A DNA stretch of 64,000 bases. Origin: Leptolyngbya sp. DLM2.Bin27 (GTDB lineage: Bacteria > Cyanobacteriota > Cyanobacteriia > Phormidesmidales > Phormidesmidaceae). The position numbers and the translations under genes were made by a program. Numbering within the stretch: the stretch's first letter is position 1; the number at the start of each line of letters is the position of its first letter. The DNA is taken from assembly GCA_007694115.1 (NCBI GenBank), contig RECJ01000102.1, forward strand, positions 1 through 64,000, given 5' to 3'. Shown here one piece after another: positions 19,605 to 60,727 of the stretch. The notes under the pieces were generated by a model. The model made no database searches, had not been told where the DNA came from, and saw nothing but the letters and a program-made list of their open reading frames with translations.

Positions 19605-20921
19605 ATGAACCAACTGCTGCTGATTCCCATTGTTGCCTTTGCCAAGCTGCTGACCCTGGCCCTGCGAATGTCGGGGCGGGGGTCGGGCACGGCGCTGCCC
19701 GGCTATCTGGTGGGGCGCTACTTTCCCTTTGTGCTCGAAGCGCTGGTCAGCCAGGTTCCGATTGTGGTGGCGATCACCGGCACCAACGGCAAAACCACCA
19801 GCCAGACCATGCTCAGCGCCGTCTTAGACCAAATGCCAGAGGCCAGGGTACTGCGCAACAAAGCCGGGGCCAACCTCAGCCAGGGAATTTTGTCAGAGCT
19901 GCTGAAGCAGAGCAATGCCCTGGGGCGGCTCGACTTTACCCACGCGGTTTTAGAGATCGAAGAGGCCACCCTGCCCCGCATCGCCACCCTGCTCAAGCCC
20001 ACTATCATCGCCGTCACCAACCTCTACCGCGACCAGCTCGACGCCTACGGCGAAATCGACCGCACCGAAAAGCTGATTCGCGACGGCATTGCCCAATGCC
20101 CCAGCGCCGCCGTGGTGGTCAACGGCGATGATCCCCGCACCTCGCGCCTCACCCAGGGCCTGGGCAATGCCACCTACTATGTGTCTCTGGCCCCCGAATA
20201 CGCCCGGTACCTGCCCTACGAGGGCCAGGTCAATAGCCGCATTCCCGGCAGCGAGGGGCTAGAGGCCACCAATATTTGCATTAACCCAGACCTGACCACC
20301 GACTTTTCGGTGCAGGGGTTGATCCGGGGGGAGACCGTCCATTTGCCCCAGGCCAAAACCCTGTCGCCGGGGTTCTTTCATGTCTACAACGGGCTAACGG
20401 CGATTGCGATCGCCTACCTGCTCGGCATGGATGGGGCGACTGCGATCGCCGGCCTGCAAACCTTCAAACCCGCCTTTGGCCGGGGCGAAATTCTCACCCG
20501 CCGCCAGGGCGACAGGTTGGTCAACTACCGCCTGCTGCTGGTCAAAAACCCGGCCAGCTTTAGCCTCAGCCTAGAGCTGCTGCGAAATATCCCTGCCCTC
20601 AAGCTAATTCTGGCCATCAACGACAACACCGCCGACAGCAAAGATGTCTCCTGGCTGTGGGATAGCGAGCTAGAGCGGCTCAACCCAGCCGATATTGACT
20701 GGATCATCTGCACCGGCATTCGGGCTAAGGACATGGCCGTGCGGCTCAAGTACGCCCTCGACGCGCCCCCCGGCCCGATTCCGACCGTAGAATCGATCCG
20801 CCAGGCAATTGATTTATCCTTTGAAAAAGCCAGCCCCGGCGACACGGTCTTTGTGCTGCCCACCTACACCGCTATGCTCGAATTCCGCAAGCTGATGGGC
20901 AAAACTCTCGATATTGTTTAG
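19605..20921 (+). CDS. murT: Lipid II isoglutaminyl synthase, MurT subunit, 438 aa
   Basis: MurT is the Mur-ligase-like, ATP-using subunit that, with GatD, amidates the D-Glu of lipid II. Seen: an N-terminal hydrophobic stretch, the ATP loop AITGTNGKTTSQTML (about residues 62-76), RNKAGANLSQGI, the central Mur ligase domain, and the C-terminal DUF1727 domain with IDWIICTGIRAKDMAVRL. In Gram-positive MurT a Cys4 zinc ribbon is inserted in the central domain; here that region has a single Cys (TNICIN) and no CxxC pairs, so the ribbon is missing. gatD follows on the same strand 143 bases later. The pairing makes the call firm despite the unusual host group. Confidence 0.9.
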   Translation: MNQLLLIPIVAFAKLLTLALRMSGRGSGTALPGYLVGRYFPFVLEALVSQVPIVVAITGTNGKTTSQTMLSAVLDQMPEARVLRNKAGANLSQGILSELLKQSNALGRLDFTHAVLEIEEATLPRIATLLKPTIIAVTNLYRDQLDAYGEIDRTEKLIRDGIAQCPSAAVVVNGDDPRTSRLTQGLGNATYYVSLAPEYARYLPYEGQVNSRIPGSEGLEATNICINPDLTTDFSVQGLIRGETVHLPQAKTLSPGFFHVYNGLTAIAIAYLLGMDGATAIAGLQTFKPAFGRGEILTRRQGDRLVNYRLLLVKNPASFSLSLELLRNIPALKLILAINDNTADSKDVSWLWDSELERLNPADIDWIICTGIRAKDMAVRLKYALDAPPGPIPTVESIRQAIDLSFEKASPGDTVFVLPTYTAMLEFRKLMGKTLDIV

Positions 20922-20949
20922 GGTCTACCCTCCAGAAACCCGAGACCAT

Positions 20950-20966
20950 GGTGGGCAGTGCCCACC
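20950..20966. repeat. GGTGGGCA-type palindromic repeat between murT and gatD
   Basis: GGTGGGCAGTGCCCACC forms a nearly perfect 17-bp palindrome. Related copies are at 39418-39434 (inside selD) and, degenerate, at 37305-37320. It lies just upstream of the second 27-bp repeat, so the murT-gatD gap is mostly repeat DNA. Confidence 0.7.
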
Positions 20967-20989
20967 TACGGGACTACCCATTCACCTCT

Positions 20990-21016
20990 AGGGCAGACAC
21001 ATAGGTCTGCCCCTAC
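20990..21016. repeat. 27-bp palindromic repeat, copy B (upstream of gatD)
   Basis: Identical to the copy at 19503-19529: GGGCAGAC, ACATAG loop, GTCTGCCC, then CTAC. As in copy A it is followed by a run of CCCACC/CTACCC simple repeats, reaching up to the gatD start codon. Confidence 0.7.
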
Positions 21017-21064
21017 GCACCCACCTACCCGCCTACCCATCCACCCACCTACCCGCCTACCCAA

Positions 21065-21856
21065 ATGCCCCCCTCCCTCACCATCACCCACCTCTACCCC
21101 GACCACCTCAACCTCTACGGCGACACCGGCAACCTGATCGTGCTGCGCCGCCGCTGTCAGTGGATGGGTATTGACTGCATAGTGAAGGTGCTCTCCATGG
21201 GCGAGGTGGCCCAGGCGGGCCAGAGCGACCTCTACTTTATGGGCGGCGGTCAAGACACCGACCAGGTGGCGGTGGTGGCAGACTTTCACCAGCTCAAGTA
21301 CGACGCCATTCGCGCCGACACCGAGGCGGGGGTGCCTTTTTTGGGGGTGTGCGGCGGCTACCAGCTGATGGGCCACACCTTCTTAATGGGCAATGGTGAA
21401 GAGACACGCGGGTTGGGCATTATCAACGTCAGCACCCGCGCGCCGGGCACCGAGGTCAAGCAGCGGTGCATCGGCAACCTAATTGCTGAAATCAACCCCA
21501 CCACCTACGCCGACATGCAGACGATGTACGCCACCCCCCGCGAGATTCCCCGCACCCTGGTGGGGTTTGAGAATCACTCGGGCCAAACCTACCTGGGCGA
21601 GGGCGTCGAGCCCCTGGCCAAGACCATCGCCGGGTTTGGCAACAACGCCGCCGCCGCGTACGAGGGGGCACGCTATAAAAATGTCTTTGGCAGCTACATG
21701 CACGGGTCGCTGCTGCCCAAAAATCCCCACTTTGCCGACTACCTGATCGGCCTGGCCCTGCGCCGCCAGCAGCCTGACGCCACTCTGCCCGCCCTGGCCG
21801 ACACCGAAGAACTGGCCGCCCACAGCTACGCAGTGCAGCGCTATAGCCAAAAATGA
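21065..21856 (+). CDS. gatD: Lipid II isoglutaminyl synthase, GatD glutaminase subunit, 263 aa
   Basis: A CobB/CobQ-like class I glutamine amidotransferase feeding ammonia to MurT. HLYPDHLNLYGDTGNLIVL is the family N-terminus. The nucleophile is Cys96 in FLGVCGGYQLMGH, and the catalytic His is in GSYMHGSLLPKNPHFAD. LYFMGGGQDTDQ is typical of GatD and related proteins. The usual length (about 245-265 aa) fits. It follows murT on the same strand, and its TGA overlaps the ATG of the next gene (ATGA), so it is translationally coupled with the signal peptidase. Similar proteins labelled cobyric acid synthase are the alternative, but the neighbour settles it. Confidence 0.92.
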   Translation: MPPSLTITHLYPDHLNLYGDTGNLIVLRRRCQWMGIDCIVKVLSMGEVAQAGQSDLYFMGGGQDTDQVAVVADFHQLKYDAIRADTEAGVPFLGVCGGYQLMGHTFLMGNGEETRGLGIINVSTRAPGTEVKQRCIGNLIAEINPTTYADMQTMYATPREIPRTLVGFENHSGQTYLGEGVEPLAKTIAGFGNNAAAAYEGARYKNVFGSYMHGSLLPKNPHFADYLIGLALRRQQPDATLPALADTEELAAHSYAVQRYSQK

Positions 21857-22926
21857 CCAAGGCAACCCCCAAGGTGTTAGTGGGTAAGGCGCAACCCAAA
21901 AGCCCTTGGCTGGCGGTCAACCTGTCGGCGGCGCTGCCCGGTGTGGGGCAGATGTACGACGGTGCGATCGCACGCGGCCTGATCATCTTCGTCGGCTTTT
22001 GGGGCCTGATTGGCTTTATTCTCTGGTCGATCTTTGCCCCGGCGGGCAACACCCTGCGGGGGCTGATCTGCCTGATTCCCCTGATCAGTCTCTATATATT
22101 TGGCCTGTGGGATAGCCACCATGCCGCCAAGCGGGGAATTACCCTCGACGAGTTTAGCCCACTGCGATACCAGTCCCGAGATCCGTGGTATCCGGTGTTT
22201 CTCTCCCAGGTGCTGCCGGGGCTGGGGCAGCTGTTTTTGCAGCGGGCGGCGGTGGGCGGGGCGCTGCTGATTTTGGGCATTCTAGTCGGCTACCTGGCCA
22301 ACTTTGCCCCGGTGCTGCTGCCGGTGCCGCCGCTGATCTGGGCAGCGGCCTGCGGGCTGGCCTACTGGGCGGCCCCGAGCCCACGACGGCAGTGGGGCAT
22401 GTTGGCGCTGCTGCTGGCGGCGGTGATGGTCACGCGCCTGACCATTAGCTCAATTCCCTTTGTGGTACCCAGACTGGTGGTGCAGTGCATTGTGCCCAGT
22501 GAGTCAATGCTGCCGACGCTGGCGGTGGGCGATCGCATCTTTGTGCGCCCCCGCCCCGCCGACCAGCCGCTGGCGGTGGGCGACATCATTGTGTTTACCA
22601 ACCCCGAAAATACCCCCCTGGCCGAGGCCGGGGGGCTCGATAACCTGGTGGTCAAGCGGGTGGTGGCCCTGGCCGGTCAGCGAGTCGAGGTGCGCAACGG
22701 CCAGGTGTGGCTCGACGGCAGCCCCCTGATTGAGCCCTATATTGCCGAACCAATGGGCTATCAATGGGGGCCAGCAACCGTACCCGAGGGCCACCTGTTT
22801 GTGCTGGGCGACAACCGCAACCACAGCCGCGACTCAAGTGTTTGGGGCTTTTTGCCCCGCGCTCACCTGGTGGGCAACGCCTACAAAATCTACTGGCCAC
22901 CACAGCGGGTGCAGCCGTTGGTTTAG
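21853..22926 (+). CDS. lepB: Signal peptidase I with extra N-terminal membrane domain, 357 aa
   Basis: The C-terminal half is a type I signal peptidase that removes signal peptides outside the cytoplasmic or thylakoid membrane. The catalytic Ser is in IVPSESMLPTL (near residue 217), the general-base Lys in NLVVKRVVALAG (near 268), and box E is GDNRNHSRDSSVWGF. The first 190 residues are an additional membrane region with several helices and two similar segments, ALPGVGQMYDGAIARGLIIF and VLPGLGQLFLQRAAVGGALL. Each resembles the LPGxGQ start of small DUF5683/TM2-like membrane domains. The usual bacterial enzyme is much shorter, so this is a fusion. The ATG overlaps the gatD stop. Confidence 0.9.
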   Translation: MTKATPKVLVGKAQPKSPWLAVNLSAALPGVGQMYDGAIARGLIIFVGFWGLIGFILWSIFAPAGNTLRGLICLIPLISLYIFGLWDSHHAAKRGITLDEFSPLRYQSRDPWYPVFLSQVLPGLGQLFLQRAAVGGALLILGILVGYLANFAPVLLPVPPLIWAAACGLAYWAAPSPRRQWGMLALLLAAVMVTRLTISSIPFVVPRLVVQCIVPSESMLPTLAVGDRIFVRPRPADQPLAVGDIIVFTNPENTPLAEAGGLDNLVVKRVVALAGQRVEVRNGQVWLDGSPLIEPYIAEPMGYQWGPATVPEGHLFVLGDNRNHSRDSSVWGFLPRAHLVGNAYKIYWPPQRVQPLV

Positions 22927-22989: not shown

Positions 22990-23721
22990 ATGTTTGCTGC
23001 TCCCACATCACCAGTTTCAACCATGACTTGGCGACTTCGCAATTTGTTTCGGCTGACCTCGGCCACCCCCTCTGAACCCGGCTCTGCGAGGGTTCTTACC
23101 CAGCCTTTATCCCATCGTTTGAGAAAGCTGTTGCCTGGGCGGCGGCTCCGGCCAACGGTGTTGCTAGGCCTAGTGCTGACCACCATCGTGACGATGACCC
23201 TGCCCCGGTCATTGCCCGAGGCCTCAGCCCAAGAGCTCGCCGCCGCCCTCTGGACCCGGGCCTCCTTTCCGGTCGAAGACTTTCAAACCTACACGTCTCC
23301 CTTTGGCTACCGCAGCGACCCCTTGAGCGGCAATGCTCGGTTTCACTACGGGCTAGATTTGGCCGCCCCCAACGGCAGCTACATTCGCAACTGGTGGGGC
23401 GGTGAAGTGCTGTGGGTCGAAGACAAGGGGGCCTGCGGCACCTCTATCGGCATCAAATCGGGAGAGTGGACGCATATCTACTGCCATATGCACGGCCATG
23501 TGGAAGGCAGTGGCCAAAATAAAACCATGGTCGACCGCAATGGCGGCATTCAGCTGCGGATCGGGCAGGCGGTGCCCGCCGGGGCGCGCATTGGCCGAGT
23601 GGGAATGACGGGCCGCACCACCGGGCCACACCTGCACTGGGGCCTCAAGTACCAAGACAATTGGGTCGATCCGGCCCTGGTGCTGCGGGCCATGTATGTT
23701 AGCCAGCAGGCGGCGCTCTAG
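22990..23721 (+). CDS. M23 (LytM-type) metallopeptidase, 243 aa
   Basis: A secreted peptidoglycan endopeptidase or structural LytM protein. After a basic N-terminal region and a hydrophobic segment (LLGLVLTTIVTMTLP, ending near an ASA cleavage-like site), the catalytic domain has FHYGLDLAAPNGSYI (the HxxxD zinc ligands), HIYCHMHGH and GPHLHWGLKY (the HxH motif). All zinc ligands are present, so it should be active, in contrast to many degenerate LytM proteins. The ATG at 22990 is used; ATG 23023 is an equally plausible start. It sits 63 bases after lepB, and its end is next to the pentapeptide gene. Confidence 0.88.
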   Translation: MFAAPTSPVSTMTWRLRNLFRLTSATPSEPGSARVLTQPLSHRLRKLLPGRRLRPTVLLGLVLTTIVTMTLPRSLPEASAQELAAALWTRASFPVEDFQTYTSPFGYRSDPLSGNARFHYGLDLAAPNGSYIRNWWGGEVLWVEDKGACGTSIGIKSGEWTHIYCHMHGHVEGSGQNKTMVDRNGGIQLRIGQAVPAGARIGRVGMTGRTTGPHLHWGLKYQDNWVDPALVLRAMYVSQQAAL

Positions 23722-23728
23722 GGCGGCA

Positions 23729-25945
23729 ATGCCCAATCTCCGCTGGCTCAGGCGACGATGGCTCAGGCGACGATGGCTCAGGCGACGATGGCTCAGGCGA
23801 CGATGGCTCAACTGGCTATGGCTAAACTGGCTGGGGATCGGTGTGCTGATCGCGGCGTTGACCTGGGGCCAACCAGCCCAGGCGGCGGAGAGTCACCCAC
23901 TGCTGACGGTCGATCTTTTGCGCCAGCGGCTAGCCGCCCCCGTGCAGCGGGAGGGTAGACCCACCCTTGATCTACGCAACTACACGATCGATCTGCGGGC
24001 CGACAGTGCCCTCACCGACAGCTTCTACCGATTGCTCAGCAGTGGGCTACAGCGACCCGCTACGGCCCCTACCCTCGATCTCAGCTATGCCGTGGTGCAG
24101 GGCGATCTCGATTTGCAGCGGCTAGGTCAGCGAGAGCCCCTCTACGGCAACAACCTATCGCCCCTGCTGAGCGAGGCTGGGCAGGCGCAGCTAAAGCGCG
24201 ATCGCACTCGGCTGCTTCAGCTCAATCGCCTGTCACAGTCGCTGCTGATTCAGGGCCAGAACAGCAGCCAGCAGATCTATGTATTTAAAGCGCCCCTGGT
24301 GGCGGTGCAAACTCGCTTTACTGGGGCAGTGCAGGGGGGCGACACATTTTTTTTAGGCCGGGTGCTGGCTTCGGGGGCGGTGTTTGACCAGGGGCTGTCG
24401 GTGGCCGGGGCGCGGTTTAACCGGGCGGTCGACTTCTCTGGGGCCGACTTTCGCCAGGGGGTGCAGGCCAAGGGCAGCCTGTTTTTTGAGACCACCCGCT
24501 TCGACCAGGGCCAGTTTCGCAGTGGGGCCAATTTTCAGGGGGCCGAGTTTAAGGCCAACGCCAACTTTAGCCGGGCGGTGCTGGCGGGCGAGACCAATTT
24601 CAGCCGGGCGCAGTGGCAGGGGGTGGCCGACTTTGCCCGCACCACCTGGCAGAGCACCGCTTTTTTTATGCGCAGCTACTTTGCCAGGGCGCTGTTTTTT
24701 ACCGAGGCCCGCTTTGACGGGCCGCTGGTGCTGCGGCAGACCCGCTTTGGGGAGCCGGTCAACCTGCGCAATGTGATGTTGGGCAGTGAAATCGACCTGG
24801 GCGATGCCCTGTTTCCGCCCTCGGCCTACCTCAACGTGGCGGGCATGGAGTTTAGCCTAGAGCAAACCCAGATCTTGGGCACCCCCGGCAAGATTGGTCG
24901 GGTGTTCTCGGTGCCCCAGCTGGCGGGCAACGAAACCCTGCTGCGCAACCTGGAGCGCAATTTTCGTCGCCTAGAGCAGATCAGCGACGCCAACTACATT
25001 GCCTACACCGCCGAGCGGCTGCGGCTCAAGGCCTGGCAGCAGCGGCTGTTGGGCACCAACATCAACACCGCCCCGGTGGCGGCTTTGGTGCGGGTCGGCT
25101 TTACTGAAGCCCAGGCCATGGCGGTGGTGCAGCAGCGCCAAACCCAGCCGTTTATTGGCATTGAGGGGGTACTGGGCGTGGCGGGGGTTGACCTGGCGGC
25201 CTATGTGAAGGTGCGCGATCGCATCTTTGCCCTGAATGCGTTTCCCCTGACCCGGCGACTGACCCTGGCCCTACAGTGGCTGTGGCTAGGGGGGCTGGTG
25301 GTGCTGAGCCGCTACGGCACCAGCTTTGGCCTCACCTTTGGGTTGGGGCTGGTGGCCATTCCCACCTTTGCGCTGATGTTCTGGCTGGTAGATCGCTACC
25401 GCCGCCGCCGGATGCCGCCGATTTTGCCGCCGCTGGCGGAGGGGCTGTGGCTGGGGGGAGGCTGTGCTGTGCTGCTGGGGCTGGGGCTGAATGCGCTGCG
25501 CTCCGCCGACTATCCGCTGTTGGCCCTGGGGTTTTTGTCGGTGCTGCTGGTGCCCGTGCCAGCCCTGCTGATTGGCCTGGTGCTCAAGCAGGGCCGCTAC
25601 CACGACCTAATGGACGAGAGCTACTTTGTCGAAGACGGCAGCCTACGCCAGCTGCGGCTGCTGATTGCGCGGCTGCCGGTGATTCCCAAATTTCCGTTTT
25701 TTCGCGATCGCTACACCTACCTGCTGCTCGATCGCCGCTGGAACTGGCTCAACTACCTCGACTTCAGCATCAACAACTGGCTGAAATTTGGCTTCAACGA
25801 CATCCGATTGCGAGATCAGCATGTGCCGGGGTTGATTACGGCTCTCGTGTGGTATCAATGGGGGTTGGGTCTGCTCTACACGGCATTGCTCCTGTGGACG
25901 CTATCGCGCACCATTCCAGGTTTAAATCTGTTGATCTACTTCTAG
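23729..25945 (+). CDS. Pentapeptide-repeat / helix-hairpin-helix membrane protein, 738 aa
   Basis: An unusual modular membrane protein. The N-terminus is a tandem WLRRR repeat (four exact copies) running into a hydrophobic signal anchor and an ALTWGQPAQA cleavage-like site. Residues about 190-400 are degenerate pentapeptide repeats (AxFxx units such as ARFNRAVDFSGADFRQGVQ). Next is a ComEA-like HhH stretch, NINTAPVAALVRVGFTEAQ with IGIEGVLGVAGVD. Several transmembrane helices make the last 230 residues. I chose ATG 23729 (AGGGCGG upstream) over 23696, which would overlap the peptidase gene. I do not know its function; surface or periplasmic exposure of the repeat region is inferred. Confidence 0.75.
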   Translation: MPNLRWLRRRWLRRRWLRRRWLRRRWLNWLWLNWLGIGVLIAALTWGQPAQAAESHPLLTVDLLRQRLAAPVQREGRPTLDLRNYTIDLRADSALTDSFYRLLSSGLQRPATAPTLDLSYAVVQGDLDLQRLGQREPLYGNNLSPLLSEAGQAQLKRDRTRLLQLNRLSQSLLIQGQNSSQQIYVFKAPLVAVQTRFTGAVQGGDTFFLGRVLASGAVFDQGLSVAGARFNRAVDFSGADFRQGVQAKGSLFFETTRFDQGQFRSGANFQGAEFKANANFSRAVLAGETNFSRAQWQGVADFARTTWQSTAFFMRSYFARALFFTEARFDGPLVLRQTRFGEPVNLRNVMLGSEIDLGDALFPPSAYLNVAGMEFSLEQTQILGTPGKIGRVFSVPQLAGNETLLRNLERNFRRLEQISDANYIAYTAERLRLKAWQQRLLGTNINTAPVAALVRVGFTEAQAMAVVQQRQTQPFIGIEGVLGVAGVDLAAYVKVRDRIFALNAFPLTRRLTLALQWLWLGGLVVLSRYGTSFGLTFGLGLVAIPTFALMFWLVDRYRRRRMPPILPPLAEGLWLGGGCAVLLGLGLNALRSADYPLLALGFLSVLLVPVPALLIGLVLKQGRYHDLMDESYFVEDGSLRQLRLLIARLPVIPKFPFFRDRYTYLLLDRRWNWLNYLDFSINNWLKFGFNDIRLRDQHVPGLITALVWYQWGLGLLYTALLLWTLSRTIPGLNLLIYF
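23744..23803 (+). repeat. Four exact 15-bp tandem repeats encoding WLRRR
   Basis: TGGCTCAGGCGACGA occurs four times without change and is followed by two related units encoding WLNWL (to 23833). Unit length is a multiple of three, so copy-number changes would keep the frame and alter the number of positive charges before the membrane segment. Confidence 0.9.
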
Positions 25946-28799: not shown

Positions 28800-30779
28800 A
28801 TGGCAAATCGGGGATGCGACGTCCTAGTAGTGGGCGGCGGTGTTATTGGCCTGGCAATCGCCCTAGAGCTACAGCAGCGGGGGGCGGTCGTTACCGTGCT
28901 CAGCCGCGACTTTGCCCAGGCGGCTAGCCATGCCGCAGCGGGGATGCTGGCCCCTAGGGCCGAAGGGCTGCCCCCCGGCCCCATGCTTGACCTATCCCTC
29001 GCCAGTTTGGCCCTGTACCCCACCTGGGTCAGCAAGCTCGAAGCCCTCACGGGGCAGTCGGTGGGCTACTGGCCCTGCGGCATTTTGGCCCCGCGCCGCG
29101 CCGCACCGGCCAATAGTTCAGCAACCTGGCTGGATGCGGCCACCCTAGGCCACTACCAGCCCGGCCTCGACCCCGCCCTCGGCGGAGCCCACTGGTACCC
29201 CGACGAGGGCCAGGTTGACAATCGGCTGCTGGTGCAGGCCCTGCGATCGGCGGTAATCGATCTGGGAGTGACCCTCCACGAGGGCACCGGAGCAATTGCC
29301 CTGGGCCATCACCAGGGCCGCATTGAGCGCGTCTGCACCGCCCAGGCGGGCGACTTTGTAGCCGACCAGGTGGTGCTGGCCACCGGAGCCTGGGCCCGCG
29401 AACTGCTGCCCCTGCCGGTGTTCCCCAAAAAGGGAGAAATGGCCAGTCTGCGGGTGCCCCCGGGCCACAGCCTGCCCCACCCCCTACAGCGGGTGCTGTT
29501 TGGCGAAAACATCTATATTGTGCCCCGGCAGGATGGCCGGATTGTGCTGGGGGCCACCAGCCAGGAGGTCGGATTTGCCCCCGGCAACACCGCCGGGGGG
29601 GTAAATCAGCTATTGAACCATGCGATCGCGCTGCTGCCCCAGCTGAGCGACTACGTGCTCGACGAAACCTGGTGGGGCTACCGGCCCACCACCCCCGACG
29701 AGTGGCCCATCCTTGGCCCCGGCCCCGCCGCCAACCTCACCCTGGCCACGGGCCACTACCGCAACGGCATTCTGCTGGCCCCGATCACCGCCCAACGGGT
29801 GGCCCAGACCGTGCTGGGCCAGGGCGATGGCCAGCTAGATCCCTTCTCCTGGCGGCGTTTCCATCGGTCTGCCCCCAGCCCCCTGCCAGCCCAGCCCCCA
29901 ATTTTTTCTACCCCCCAGGCTATGACCCTTACCGATACCGCTCCCGCCAGTCTCGCTGTCGCCTCGACCGACCAGACGGCCCTGATCGACTCGCCCCTAA
30001 CCATTGCCGGGCGCACCTTTACCTCGCGCCTGATGACCGGCACCGGCAAGTACGACGACTTTGAGGTGATGCGCCAGAGCGTGGCCGCCAGCGGCTGCGA
30101 GATCGTCACCGTGGCGGTGCGCCGGGTGCAGACCAATGCCCCCGGCCACCAGGGGCTGGCTGAGGCCCTCGACTGGTCAACGATCTGGATGCTGCCCAAC
30201 ACGGCGGGGTGCAAAACCGCCGAAGAGGCCATTCGCGTGGCCCGCCTGGGCCGGGAAATGGCCAAGCTGCTGGGCCAGGAAGACAACAACTTCGTCAAGC
30301 TCGAAGTCATTCCCGATGCCAAGTACCTGCTGCCCGACCCGATTGGCACCCTAGAGGCCGCCGAGCAGCTGGTCAAAGAGGGCTTTGCGGTGCTGCCCTA
30401 CATCAACGCCGACCCGCTGCTGGCCAAGCGCCTAGAAGAGGCGGGCTGCGCCACCGTCATGCCCCTGGGGTCGCCCATCGGCTCGGGCCAGGGCATTCGC
30501 AACGCCGCCAACATTCACATCATCATTGAGCAGGCCACGGTGCCGGTGGTGGTCGATGCGGGCATCGGCACCCCCAGCGAAGCCGCTGAAGCGATGGAAA
30601 TGGGGGCCGATGCGCTGTTGATCAACACGGCGATTGCCAAAGCGGCCAACCCCATCGCCATGGGCCGCGCCATGGGCCTAGCGGCGCTAGCGGGTCGCCT
30701 GGCCTACCGAGCCGGGCGCATTCCCATCCAGGGGGTGGCCAGCGCTAGCTCTCCCCTCACCGGGCGGATCACAGAGTAA
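28800..30779 (+). CDS. thiOG: ThiO-ThiG fusion: glycine oxidase / thiazole synthase, 659 aa
   Basis: The N-terminal half (about 1-365) is glycine oxidase ThiO, an FAD enzyme making iminoglycine: [20 protein letters not shown] (FAD loop), then [13 protein letters not shown] and [33 protein letters not shown]. The C-terminal part (about 396-659) is thiazole synthase ThiG, with [30 protein letters not shown] (Schiff-base Lys), [13 protein letters not shown] and [20 protein letters not shown]. The two join through a Pro/Ala-rich linker, in which an internal ATG near 29923 could start ThiG alone. Fusion of the consecutive thiazole-forming enzymes is known in cyanobacteria. No TPP riboswitch is visible in the short leader. 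Confidence 0.95.
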
Positions 30780-57662: not shown

Positions 57663-57693
57663 ACCTCAACTCCTGCTCGGCCTTAGAACATCG

Positions 57694-57748
57694 CCCATGA
57701 CCTTTATCACCCATGACCTTTATCACCCATGACCTTTATCACCCATGA
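57694..57748. repeat. 16-bp tandem repeat, three copies plus part
   Basis: CCCATGACCTTTATCA is present three times (57694-57741) followed by CCCATGA. It spans the gap between DUF389 and the pentapeptide gene, and the pentapeptide stop codon (minus strand TGA, 57739-57741) lies in the last unit. Confidence 0.9.
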
Positions 57749-58731
57749 ATAGTACCGTCGGGCATTGTAGTTCCGGTCAGGGTGACATTGACCACAGTAG
57801 TGCTGCTGATTTCGGCCCGCTCTAGAATGGCCTCGCTCAGATCAGCATCGGTGAGGTCTGCCCGGCCCAAATAGGCCTCAACCATAATAGCCTTGGTGAG
57901 AATCGAGCGGCACAGCGTCACCCGCGCCAGGTCAGCCCGACTAAAGCGAGCATTGGCCAGATCGCAGTCATTCATCTGGGCCAGGGCCAGCACGGCTTCG
58001 GTAAAGTCGGCTCCCTTGGCGCTGGTATTGTTCAAGTTGACCTGGCTCAGGTTGCTACGGGGAAAGCGGCAGTGGGTCAAATCAGCCGACTCTAGACAGC
58101 CGCCCGTCAGATCGACATCGCTCAGGTTGGCGTTGCACAACAGTGCCCCCTTCAGGTTGGCCCCTTTGAGGTTGGCGTCGCGCAGCACGGCTTCGCTCAG
58201 GTTGGCCCCGCTGAGATCGACGTAGGCCAGATCGGCCCCCGACAGGTTGGTGCCCCGCAGATCGGCCAAGTGCAGGTTAGCGCCACGCAGGTTGGTAGCG
58301 TATTTGCGGTTTTCTTGGCGCAGGTTGGCCCCGCGCAGGCAGGCTCCGGTGAGATTGGCCCCGCTGAGATCGGCGTTGCGCAGGTCGGCCCCGGTGAGGT
58401 TGGCATCGAGCAAATCGGCCAGGGTCATGTCGGCGCTGCGTAGATCGGCCCCTTGCAAACTAGCGCCGTGGAGGTCGGCATCGCGCAGTATCGCTGCCGA
58501 TAGGTCAGCCTGGTTGAGGTTGGCCCCGCCCAAACGCGCCCGCGACAAATTCGCCTGGCGAAACCGCACTCGGGTTAAGAATGCCAGCATCAAGTTGGCG
58601 TTCTCAAGATCGACCTGCACCATGTTGGCCCCAATCAGATCGGCTCCGGCCAGGTCAATGCCCACCAGAGTCTTACCCTTAAAATCCATATCGCCACGGG
58701 CATAGGCGTCGAGCAGTTCACGGGCATCCAT
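57739..58731 (-). CDS. Pentapeptide-repeat protein, 330 aa
   Basis: Almost the entire protein is A(D/N)Lxx repeats: for example AGADLIGANMVQVDLENANL and LRDADLHGASLQGADLRSAD, which build a right-handed quadrilateral beta-helix. An N-terminal cap ARELLDAYARGDMDFKGKTL resembles that of other cyanobacterial pentapeptide proteins. Functions of such proteins vary; none can be assigned. I use ATG 58731; the in-frame start at 58794 would overlap the cyclase gene by 50 bases. It follows the cyclase on the same strand. Confidence 0.9.
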   Translation of the reverse strand: MDARELLDAYARGDMDFKGKTLVGIDLAGADLIGANMVQVDLENANLMLAFLTRVRFRQANLSRARLGGANLNQADLSAAILRDADLHGASLQGADLRSADMTLADLLDANLTGADLRNADLSGANLTGACLRGANLRQENRKYATNLRGANLHLADLRGTNLSGADLAYVDLSGANLSEAVLRDANLKGANLKGALLCNANLSDVDLTGGCLESADLTHCRFPRSNLSQVNLNNTSAKGADFTEAVLALAQMNDCDLANARFSRADLARVTLCRSILTKAIMVEAYLGRADLTDADLSEAILERAEISSTTVVNVTLTGTTMPDGTIHG

Positions 58732-58744
58732 ATCGACAGGGGGC

Positions 58745-60727
58745 TTAGACAGATGGTCGGACGGAAGTGTGAGCCACAGCGGCGGGGCAATCACTCGAGC
58801 TAGACGACTCAGTTGACAACTCAGAGGCGATTTCAGGATGGGTGAACTCAGACCCTACTGCGGTAGTCGCTAGGGGGGCCAGGGCTACATTGGGATCTTT
58901 GGGATAGTAGGCCCGCATCGCCTGGATGATGGTACTCGCCACCTGGCCACCGTCACCAACCTGGCTCAGGCAATGGGCAATTATGGTTAGCTTACTGTCT
59001 AAATCAGAGTAAGTGGGGCAATAGTCAAAGGTTTCCTGCAATAGGTCATCAAGGGTGCGGCGGCTGAGGCTCGCCCAGTCGTGGGTGGTGTAGCCAAAGG
59101 GGCCGTAGAGGCAGGAGTAGAGCAAAATTTTGGCCCGCAGCGGATTGGCGTACTGAATGATATCGCCCCGCAGGTCAAACAGAAAGCTGCGATCGCGCCG
59201 GGGAGCGCCATCTTCTGGATCGCTGCCCAGGGGAATAGAAAGGCTGCCCTGGAGGGTGGTCAAGTCAGCCCCCTGATCGGTTGGGGGGCTGGCCAGGCTA
59301 GTCAACGTGGTGTGGCCGCCCTCAGCGCTACCGCCCGAGGAGCTGGCAGGGCCAGAAGCAGGGCCAGAAGCAGGGCCAGAAGCAGGGCCAGAAGCAGGGC
59401 CAGCAGGGCCAGAAGCAGGATCAGAGGGATCGGCTAAGTCGGTCATCTCGCCTAGGGCCGTGGCCGCATCTTCAGCCTGGGCATCGGCTTGGCTTTGGTA
59501 GAGGGGCTGCATCCCCAACATAATTTGACTGGCCAGGCGAGTATACTGCTGGCGACGATTGAGATGCTTAATGATGCGCCCGAGGCGGTAGCGCAAGTCG
59601 CGGGGATGGGGGGCAATGGTGAGAATCTGCTGCACCAACCCTGGCAAATACAGCTGGTTGAGGCGGCTGGGGTCATTTTCCCAGCTGTTATAGCAGAGGC
59701 AGTAGATGAGCTTGCGCAGGCGCAGGGCCTCGGGACTTTGGTCAAATTGCTCGGTGATACTCCGGCAGCGCTCTTCCACAGAACGCATAGTCAGCCGCGT
59801 CAGCTCGTCGGTGACCTCGGGGTTTTGAAACAGCGATCGCCCATACCAGGGCTGAAGCTGCCGAATGACAATATTGGCCATCTCACGGTAGAGATCTTGC
59901 CGGTTGAGCCCGGCTACTACCTGCTGTAGCTGGTCTTCTAAATCACTCAGAGCCGGGTAGCGATCGCGCAGCGACAGCAGCAGCGACCTGAGATCAAACT
60001 GATCCAGTACAGTTGGATCGTTCTCCCAGGCCTTTTGATAGGTGGCAAATACCAGCTTTTTAATGCGCAGACTGTAGGGATTGGTGCTGAGGGCCTTGAC
60101 TGCGTTGGCCAACAACGCCTCGGTGGTCATGGGGAGGGTGCAGGTGTTTTCCTCTGACCCATGGGGGCCAGGCTCGGTGTCTTCGGGCTGGAGCGCCAGC
60201 TGGTAGGCCGGTACCGGTTCTTCAATATTTTTCAGGTGCAGCGGCCCTAAAAAAGTGGCATGCAGGTTGAGCCGCGCCTTGACCACATCGTAGATAGTGC
60301 GCGATACACACAGCCCCCTGGGTTTAGAGTAGGTCTGCAACCGGGCGGTAACATTCACCCCGTTACCCATCACGTCTTGTTCGCTGACTAAGATATCGCC
60401 TAGGTGAATGCCAATCCGGTGGTCGAGGTACTGATTGGGGTCTAACCCCTCAGCTAGGTCTACCAGCCGCCGCTGCATCTCTACACCACAGGAAACCGCC
60501 TCCACAGCGCTGAGAAAGTAAATCAGCAGGCCGTCGCCGGTCGACTTCAGCACGGTGCCGCCAAATTCTCGACAGGTATCGCCAATCAACGTCAGGTCAC
60601 GGTCGATCAGGCTGAGGGTGTGCTCTTCGTCTACCGACATGCGGGTGCTAAAGCCCACCGCATCGGTGATCATGATGGCGGCTAGCAGCCGTTGCCCCTG
60701 GGATAGGGATGACACTCGACGTTCCAT
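58745..60727 (-). CDS. Class III adenylate/guanylate cyclase, 660 aa
   Basis: The N-terminal 190 residues are a class III cyclase catalytic domain: AAIMITDAVGFSTRMSVDEE with the first metal Asp, GTVLKSTGDGLLIYFLSAVE with the second, then GIHLGDILVSEQDVMGNGVN and VTARLQ with the transition-state Asn and Arg. So it should make cAMP or cGMP. The rest is three related helical segments (for example KLVFATYQKAWENDPTVLDQ, KLIYCLCYNSWENDPSRLNQ), not recognised as a named domain, and a low-complexity PASG linker near residues 435-460. No membrane helix. The pentapeptide gene follows closely on the same strand. Confidence 0.88.
   Translation of the reverse strand: MERRVSSLSQGQRLLAAIMITDAVGFSTRMSVDEEHTLSLIDRDLTLIGDTCREFGGTVLKSTGDGLLIYFLSAVEAVSCGVEMQRRLVDLAEGLDPNQYLDHRIGIHLGDILVSEQDVMGNGVNVTARLQTYSKPRGLCVSRTIYDVVKARLNLHATFLGPLHLKNIEEPVPAYQLALQPEDTEPGPHGSEENTCTLPMTTEALLANAVKALSTNPYSLRIKKLVFATYQKAWENDPTVLDQFDLRSLLLSLRDRYPALSDLEDQLQQVVAGLNRQDLYREMANIVIRQLQPWYGRSLFQNPEVTDELTRLTMRSVEERCRSITEQFDQSPEALRLRKLIYCLCYNSWENDPSRLNQLYLPGLVQQILTIAPHPRDLRYRLGRIIKHLNRRQQYTRLASQIMLGMQPLYQSQADAQAEDAATALGEMTDLADPSDPASGPAGPASGPASGPASGPASGPASSSGGSAEGGHTTLTSLASPPTDQGADLTTLQGSLSIPLGSDPEDGAPRRDRSFLFDLRGDIIQYANPLRAKILLYSCLYGPFGYTTHDWASLSRRTLDDLLQETFDYCPTYSDLDSKLTIIAHCLSQVGDGGQVASTIIQAMRAYYPKDPNVALAPLATTAVGSEFTHPEIASELSTESSSSSDCPAAVAHTSVRPSV
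59349..59417 (-). repeat. 12-bp repeat encoding PASG in the cyclase
   Basis: GGGCCAGAAGCA occurs four times in tandem (59349-59396), then a 9-base unit GGGCCAGCA and one more full copy. It keeps the frame and gives a proline/alanine/serine/glycine linker. Confidence 0.85.

Follow-up and report, generated by a model that had tools for sequence, protein, structure and literature searches.

What kind of protein combines, in a single chain, WLRRR and pentapeptide repeats with a helix-hairpin-helix (HhH) domain and membrane helices, and does such a protein act on DNA at the cell surface? The question is raised by an open reading frame at 23729–25945 on the forward strand of a 64,000-nucleotide stretch from Leptolyngbya sp. 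DLM2.Bin27 (the whole stretch is referred to below as the window), which gives 738 amino acids on translation. TRF, Pfam and AlphaFold2 confirmed that all four elements lie in one ORF, and the analysis bore out that the 15-bp repeat runs in frame, both as a sequence-only reading of this DNA had proposed. The accompanying view that no family has this combination did not hold: pentapeptide repeats, HhH and transmembrane (TM) helices together characterise a conserved cyanobacterial family, and only the WLRRR array is unique. The features of the window protein are as follows.

23729–23884, + strand: predicted Sec-type signal peptide (residues 1–52) with cleavage between QPAQA and AES and an enlarged Arg-rich n-region; from aligned relatives.
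23744–23810, + strand: 15-bp tandem array of TGGCTCAGGCGACGA, 4.5 copies, encoding (WLRRR)4 within the signal-peptide n-region; TRF, 100% matches.
23803–23832, + strand: second 15-bp duplication, 2 copies, encoding (WLNWL)2 in the signal-peptide h-region; TRF, 93%.
23885–24268, + strand: N-terminal cap domain, predicted to be exoplasmic (residues 53–180); mixed alpha/beta in the AlphaFold2 model.
24269–24883, + strand: pentapeptide-repeat beta-helix (residues 181–385); Pfam Pentapeptide_3 and AlphaFold2 strands.
24884–25051, + strand: conserved helical linker GNETLLRNLERNFRRLEQISDANYI (residues 386–441); identity in distant members.
25052–25240, + strand: HhH domain of the HHH_3 type (residues 442–504) with the non-canonical hairpins VGFT and AGVDL; Pfam and Foldseek.
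25247–25591, + strand: four hydrophobic helices (residues 507–621); DSSP on the AlphaFold2 model and hydropathy.
25592–25945, + strand: most conserved region, comprising a charged/aromatic loop (622–699), the last TM helix, the LSRTIPGLNLLIYF tail and the stop codon.

Relatives of the window protein were found in 42 of 59 near genomes, in 27 of the 28 genomes of the same genus (the window's own genome counted) and, in a phylum-wide sample, in 49 of 292 genomes (about 17%), with one match per genome and few exceptions. They occur in 24 named contigs, including those of Nodosilinea, Phormidium, Leptolyngbya and Richelia. Residues ~25–738 align collinearly in nearly all same-genus genomes and also across the class, and the start position, mostly a GTG directly 3' of an M23 peptidase gene, is common to the relatives. 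Our literature search found no precedent for pentapeptide repeats and helix-hairpin-helix together in cyanobacteria. A profile search gave matches in 79/386, of which about 15 match the HhH alone. Proteins of ~545 aa with profile E-values of 1e-5 to 1e-3 were considered as remote members; the four that were read proved to be PLD-like, with a canonical C-terminal HhH (GVG), and these proteins were dropped from the family because they are homologous in the HhH only. Several cyanobacteria encode such PLD-like proteins of ~545 aa (L170, L171, L172 and L176), in which the C-terminal HhH is ComEA-like and canonical (LPGVG), and they would be better candidates for an exported, DNA-acting HhH than the window protein.

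Some lineages can dispense with the gene and are losing it, since decayed remnants exist: one copy has several stops (G209, L096), another is in fragments (G431, L173) and a third retains the last 191 residues only (G428, L174). A conserved operon was considered and rejected, as the order M23 peptidase – gene – 5-FTHF cyclo-ligase is confined to near relatives; among 20 distant genomes, no neighbour recurred in more than 5 of 20. Reading the upstream sequence of the window, we noted a MurT-like ligase (19605–20921), followed by a GatD-like amidotransferase (21065–21856) that matches NCBIfam GatD at 2e-47 yet lies far under the model cut-off. In Gram-positives a MurT/GatD pair amidates lipid II; here, in a cyanobacterium, the similar pair (19605–21856) stands beside signal peptidase I and the M23 peptidase. 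The signal peptidase I (21853–22926) has an extra N-terminal hydrophobic region and a weak likeness to DUF5683 (Pfam 26.2 bits, cut-off 26.7). Downstream, a 659-aa ORF at 28800–30779 resembles, by eye, a fused ThiO-ThiG of thiamine biosynthesis, a fusion known in cyanobacteria.

The AlphaFold2 model of the window protein, built with 50 homologues, has a mean pLDDT of 82. Its beta-helix (181–385) consists of regular strands, with pLDDT mostly 92–98. Pentapeptide_3 matches the window protein in four stretches (1.2e-17, 64 bits against a 27-bit cut-off) and was matched in 50 of 50 family members; the repeats of the window protein fit this model rather than the classic pentapeptide model. Elsewhere in the window, the minus-strand reading of 58000–58600 contains repeats with a 15/30/45-bp period and, by eye, resembles a second pentapeptide protein gene, of cytoplasmic type. 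At E ≤ 0.001, Foldseek returned no whole-protein match in the PDB, and credible matches were obtained for the HhH part only. Conservation is uneven along the chain. Compared with the window protein, distant members average an identity of 39–46% in the cap, beta-helix and HhH, 37–52% in the first four hydrophobic helices, 60% in the linker (386–441), 74% at 622–698 and 80% at 699–738. The C-terminal membrane region, 622–738, is thus the most highly conserved part of the family, and neither Pfam nor NCBIfam had a model that matched it. AlphaFold2 predicts five hydrophobic C-terminal helices; pLDDT in the 622–699 loop is mostly 35–40.

The ComEA-type HhH fold was upheld by structure prediction. 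The domain is modelled confidently (pLDDT about 90), and Foldseek matched it to the ComEA-related 2duy (prob 1.00, TM 0.75, rmsd 1.5 Å), to PsbU (4yuu, 2axt and 7n8o; prob 0.84–0.99) and to GspK (3ci0_K; prob 0.63). In sequence the resemblance is fainter. HHH_3 matches residues 444–499 of the window protein at 9e-5 and 22.9 bits, below the 27-bit cut-off; same-genus orthologues score 35–42 bits, above it, and 44 of 50 family members match (best E-value 1e-11), so that the assignment is not due to chance. HMMER profile matches to ComEA chains were also obtained (8dss, 7e-7; 8dfk, 1e-4).

The HhH is, in addition, optional. In homologues of families f27, f30, f33, f34 and f37 the HhH block alone (query about 446–510) is missing, with the cap, beta-helix, linker and membrane part kept in one frame; the cap is conserved in members with and without the HhH, and the linker is retained by those without. 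An AlphaFold2 model of an HhH-less homologue keeps the beta-helix and the helices, at a confidence of 71 that is mostly below 60 in the membrane part. In a tree calculated from columns outside the HhH (quick LG+G4 search, midpoint root), presence or absence of the domain maps to one change (SH-aLRT 99). The HhH-less group adjoins HhH-bearing members, and several of its rows are long branches. Under midpoint rooting the absence would represent one loss; the polarity, loss or gain, is provisional because of these long branches and the quick search. Within the genus, dN/dS of the HhH is 0.15–0.27, above or about equal to that of every other region and the most relaxed in most comparisons, whereas the linker and membrane regions reach at most 0.09. 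The presence or absence of the HhH on an otherwise collinear protein amounts to a natural experiment.

A ComEA-type fold invites the proposal that the HhH is an exoplasmic, ComEA-like DNA-binding module and that the protein aids DNA uptake or handles extracellular DNA. The structural match to 2duy, the profile matches to 8dss and 8dfk and the exoplasmic placement suggested by the signal peptide all speak for it; the details of the hairpins do not. To bind DNA, V. cholerae ComEA needs its GIG hairpin and the following lysines, K62 and K63, which contact DNA; uptake is impaired or abolished by K63A, K63E and G60V/E but not by G60A (PMC3879209). HMMER alignments to ComEA chains place VGFTEAQA of the window protein at this hairpin, with GFT in place of GIG and A461/Q462 as the equivalents of K62/K63. 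The first hairpin reads GF[S/T] or GFK in 61 of 64 members; the K62 equivalent is non-basic in most members, the window protein among them, the K63 equivalent is a Gln that is invariant in 16 aligned members, and the second hairpin is mostly xDL in place of GIG. With the curated ComEA model TIGR00426 the window protein reaches 14 bits, far short of the 53.1-bit cut-off. Loss of GIG alone is no proof against DNA binding, because Tex, whose HhH binds nucleic acid, also lacks GIG in hairpin 1; however, the Tex HhH of the same lineage carries a net charge of +4 to +7, compared with a mean of +0.3 here. A whole clade of homologues lacks the domain, an outcome that the sequence-only reading had itself listed among possible refutations of its idea, and beyond near relatives neither competence genes nor any other genes are conserved next to this one. 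With GIG and K63 replaced, a net charge of about zero and the HhH absent in one clade, a DNA role for the domain is unlikely as judged from sequence, and we regard the full proposal of a DNA-uptake or DNA-handling protein, a version of which the sequence-only reading had put forward, as highly improbable. That an exported protein folds like ComEA is not evidence of DNA binding.

The N-terminus bears on both the location of these domains and the meaning of the array. In the alignment of relatives, the signal-peptide site is occupied at −3 by a small residue, one of A/V/S/T, in 71 of 73 rows, and 67 of 73 have Ala at −1; a positively charged n-region and a hydrophobic h-region recur, although the sequence itself changes. 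Behind this conserved signal peptide, the HhH is probably exoplasmic. Five spanning helices beginning at an exoplasmic HhH would, however, conflict with the loop charges under positive-inside counts: the Arg-rich loop 554–570 has 4.2 K+R to 1.2 D+E and loop 620–699 has 13.0 to 9.4, and since both prefer the cytoplasm, either the first helix (507–530) does not span the membrane or the topology is wrong. The conflict would disappear if the N-terminal helix were an uncleaved anchor and the C-terminal helices followed the positive-inside rule, leaving the beta-helix and HhH in the cytoplasm, which is where five spanning helices would put the HhH. We consider this arrangement rather improbable, as an A-x-A cleavage motif is found in nearly all members, a simple N-in signal anchor would likewise export what follows, and a non-spanning first hydrophobic helix would remove the conflict equally well. 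With export as the preferred reading, the WLRRR array should be cleaved off on maturation, because the A-x-A site follows it, and the mature protein should lack the segment. The TGGCTCAGGCGACGA array is the longest perfect tandem array of the window; its 30-bp double unit occurs at one place only in the genome assembly, and its exact copy number is provisional, coming from an assembly that is 86% complete and broken into 322 contigs. Across species it is present in one genome and absent from all others. The closest relative, from Shackletoniella antarctica (L034), is 88.8% identical and begins MPYSHWPGPRWITWLG…, without the array, where the window protein begins MPNLRWLRRRWLRRRWLRRRWLRRRWLNWLWLNWLG…; a 21-mer of the array is absent from every other fetched locus, and no comparable array was seen at the same site in the other relatives aligned or loci scanned. 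Being in no relative, including the 89%-identical one, the array appears to be a private in-frame expansion, and since its four WLRRR copies are identical in DNA, synonymous sites included, the expansion is likely to be recent and to have arisen by slippage. Alternatively, the array could be functional, phase-variable or adaptive, acting as a copy-number switch that tunes export or as a Tat-like RRxWL motif. The 15-bp unit does preserve the frame, the array lies exactly in the positively charged n-region, and the second 15-bp duplication adjoins it; but a 15-bp unit is unable to turn the gene off by frame, the n-regions of all relatives examined lack the array and are far poorer in Arg and Lys, and the identity of the copies at synonymous sites indicates that slippage took place recently, with no history of selection behind it. 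We therefore hold a functional array to be decidedly unlikely. A literature search on repeats in signal peptides found nothing relevant.

Three other observations concern repeats in the window. A minus-strand ORF at 23353–23811 with SHRRL repeats was rejected as a gene, being the antisense reading of the WLRRR array. TRF also detected a 16-bp repeat, ATCACCCATGACCTTT, in 3.7 copies at 57690–57748, and a 12-bp repeat, GCAGGGCCAGAA, in 6.4 copies at 59346–59419.

Exported HhH domains have a protein-protein role in PsbU of photosystem II and in GspK of the type II secretion pseudopilus. PsbU, the 12-kDa extrinsic photosystem II protein, shares with the window protein an exported cyanobacterial HhH fold, but it is a small soluble subunit without pentapeptide or TM domains. 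The T2SSK profile matches the HhH region of 23 among 50 members, with a best E-value of 3e-5, and scores 16.9 bits on the window protein against a cut-off of 24.2; unlike GspK, the window protein has no pseudopilin N-terminus, and the other domains are unrelated. ComEA (Pfam HHH_3; TIGR00426/TIGR01259) has the same HhH fold, weak sequence homology and export in common with the window protein, which differs in lacking the GIG hairpin and the DNA-contact lysines and in joining its HhH to a beta-helix and a polytopic membrane domain. HglK and other cyanobacterial pentapeptide-repeat membrane proteins resemble it in having a beta-helix together with several TM helices. HglK of Nostoc PCC 7120 has four N-terminal TM regions followed by C-terminal AXLXX repeats; according to a review (PMC8145042), this pentapeptide protein sits in the membrane and has an architectural role, its biochemical role being unknown. 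Compared by description, HglK has no reported HhH, and the order is reversed in the window protein (signal peptide, repeats, HhH, TM), the TM helices of which are C-terminal to the repeats. PsbU, GspK and HglK are offered as analogies, with no claim of family membership. On the first two of these analogies, the HhH is more likely an optional exoplasmic protein-contact module.

Taken as a whole, we favour, with some reserve, a reading in which the protein belongs to a stand-alone, uncharacterised family of cyanobacterial membrane proteins with an exoplasmic beta-helix/HhH scaffold arm, the HhH is no DNA clamp and the WLRRR array is the product of recent slippage. Sec export and signal cleavage would deliver the beta-helix and HhH to the periplasm or thylakoid lumen, where the two, mounted on the membrane core, may act as a rigid arm for contacts with other proteins. 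The principal function would reside in the core and is probably to assemble or scaffold a complex of the envelope or thylakoid; we infer a scaffold role by analogy. The HhH would be an accessory module, PsbU- or GspK-like, serving as a spacer or for protein-protein contacts, and one clade has dispensed with it. The array would be a replication-slippage expansion tolerated in a fast-evolving n-region, and could tune targeting even though absent from the mature protein. More tentatively, an exoplasmic beta-helix scaffold may have its functional core in the membrane module (~507–738) and perhaps act as an assembly factor for a complex of the thylakoid or envelope; the HhH would then provide PsbU-like docking of a partner, which one clade has lost or replaced.

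In conclusion, the locus encodes a real, conserved, unnamed cyanobacterial architecture with one private decoration, the WLRRR array. Cyanobacteria are rich in pentapeptide-repeat proteins, for nearly all of which no biochemical function is known (2021 review PMC8145042). With its very conserved membrane module, matched by no Pfam or NCBIfam model, the family provides a sharp handle on these proteins. If the proposed role of the membrane module is correct, the family would define an undescribed cyanobacterial membrane module (~507–738).
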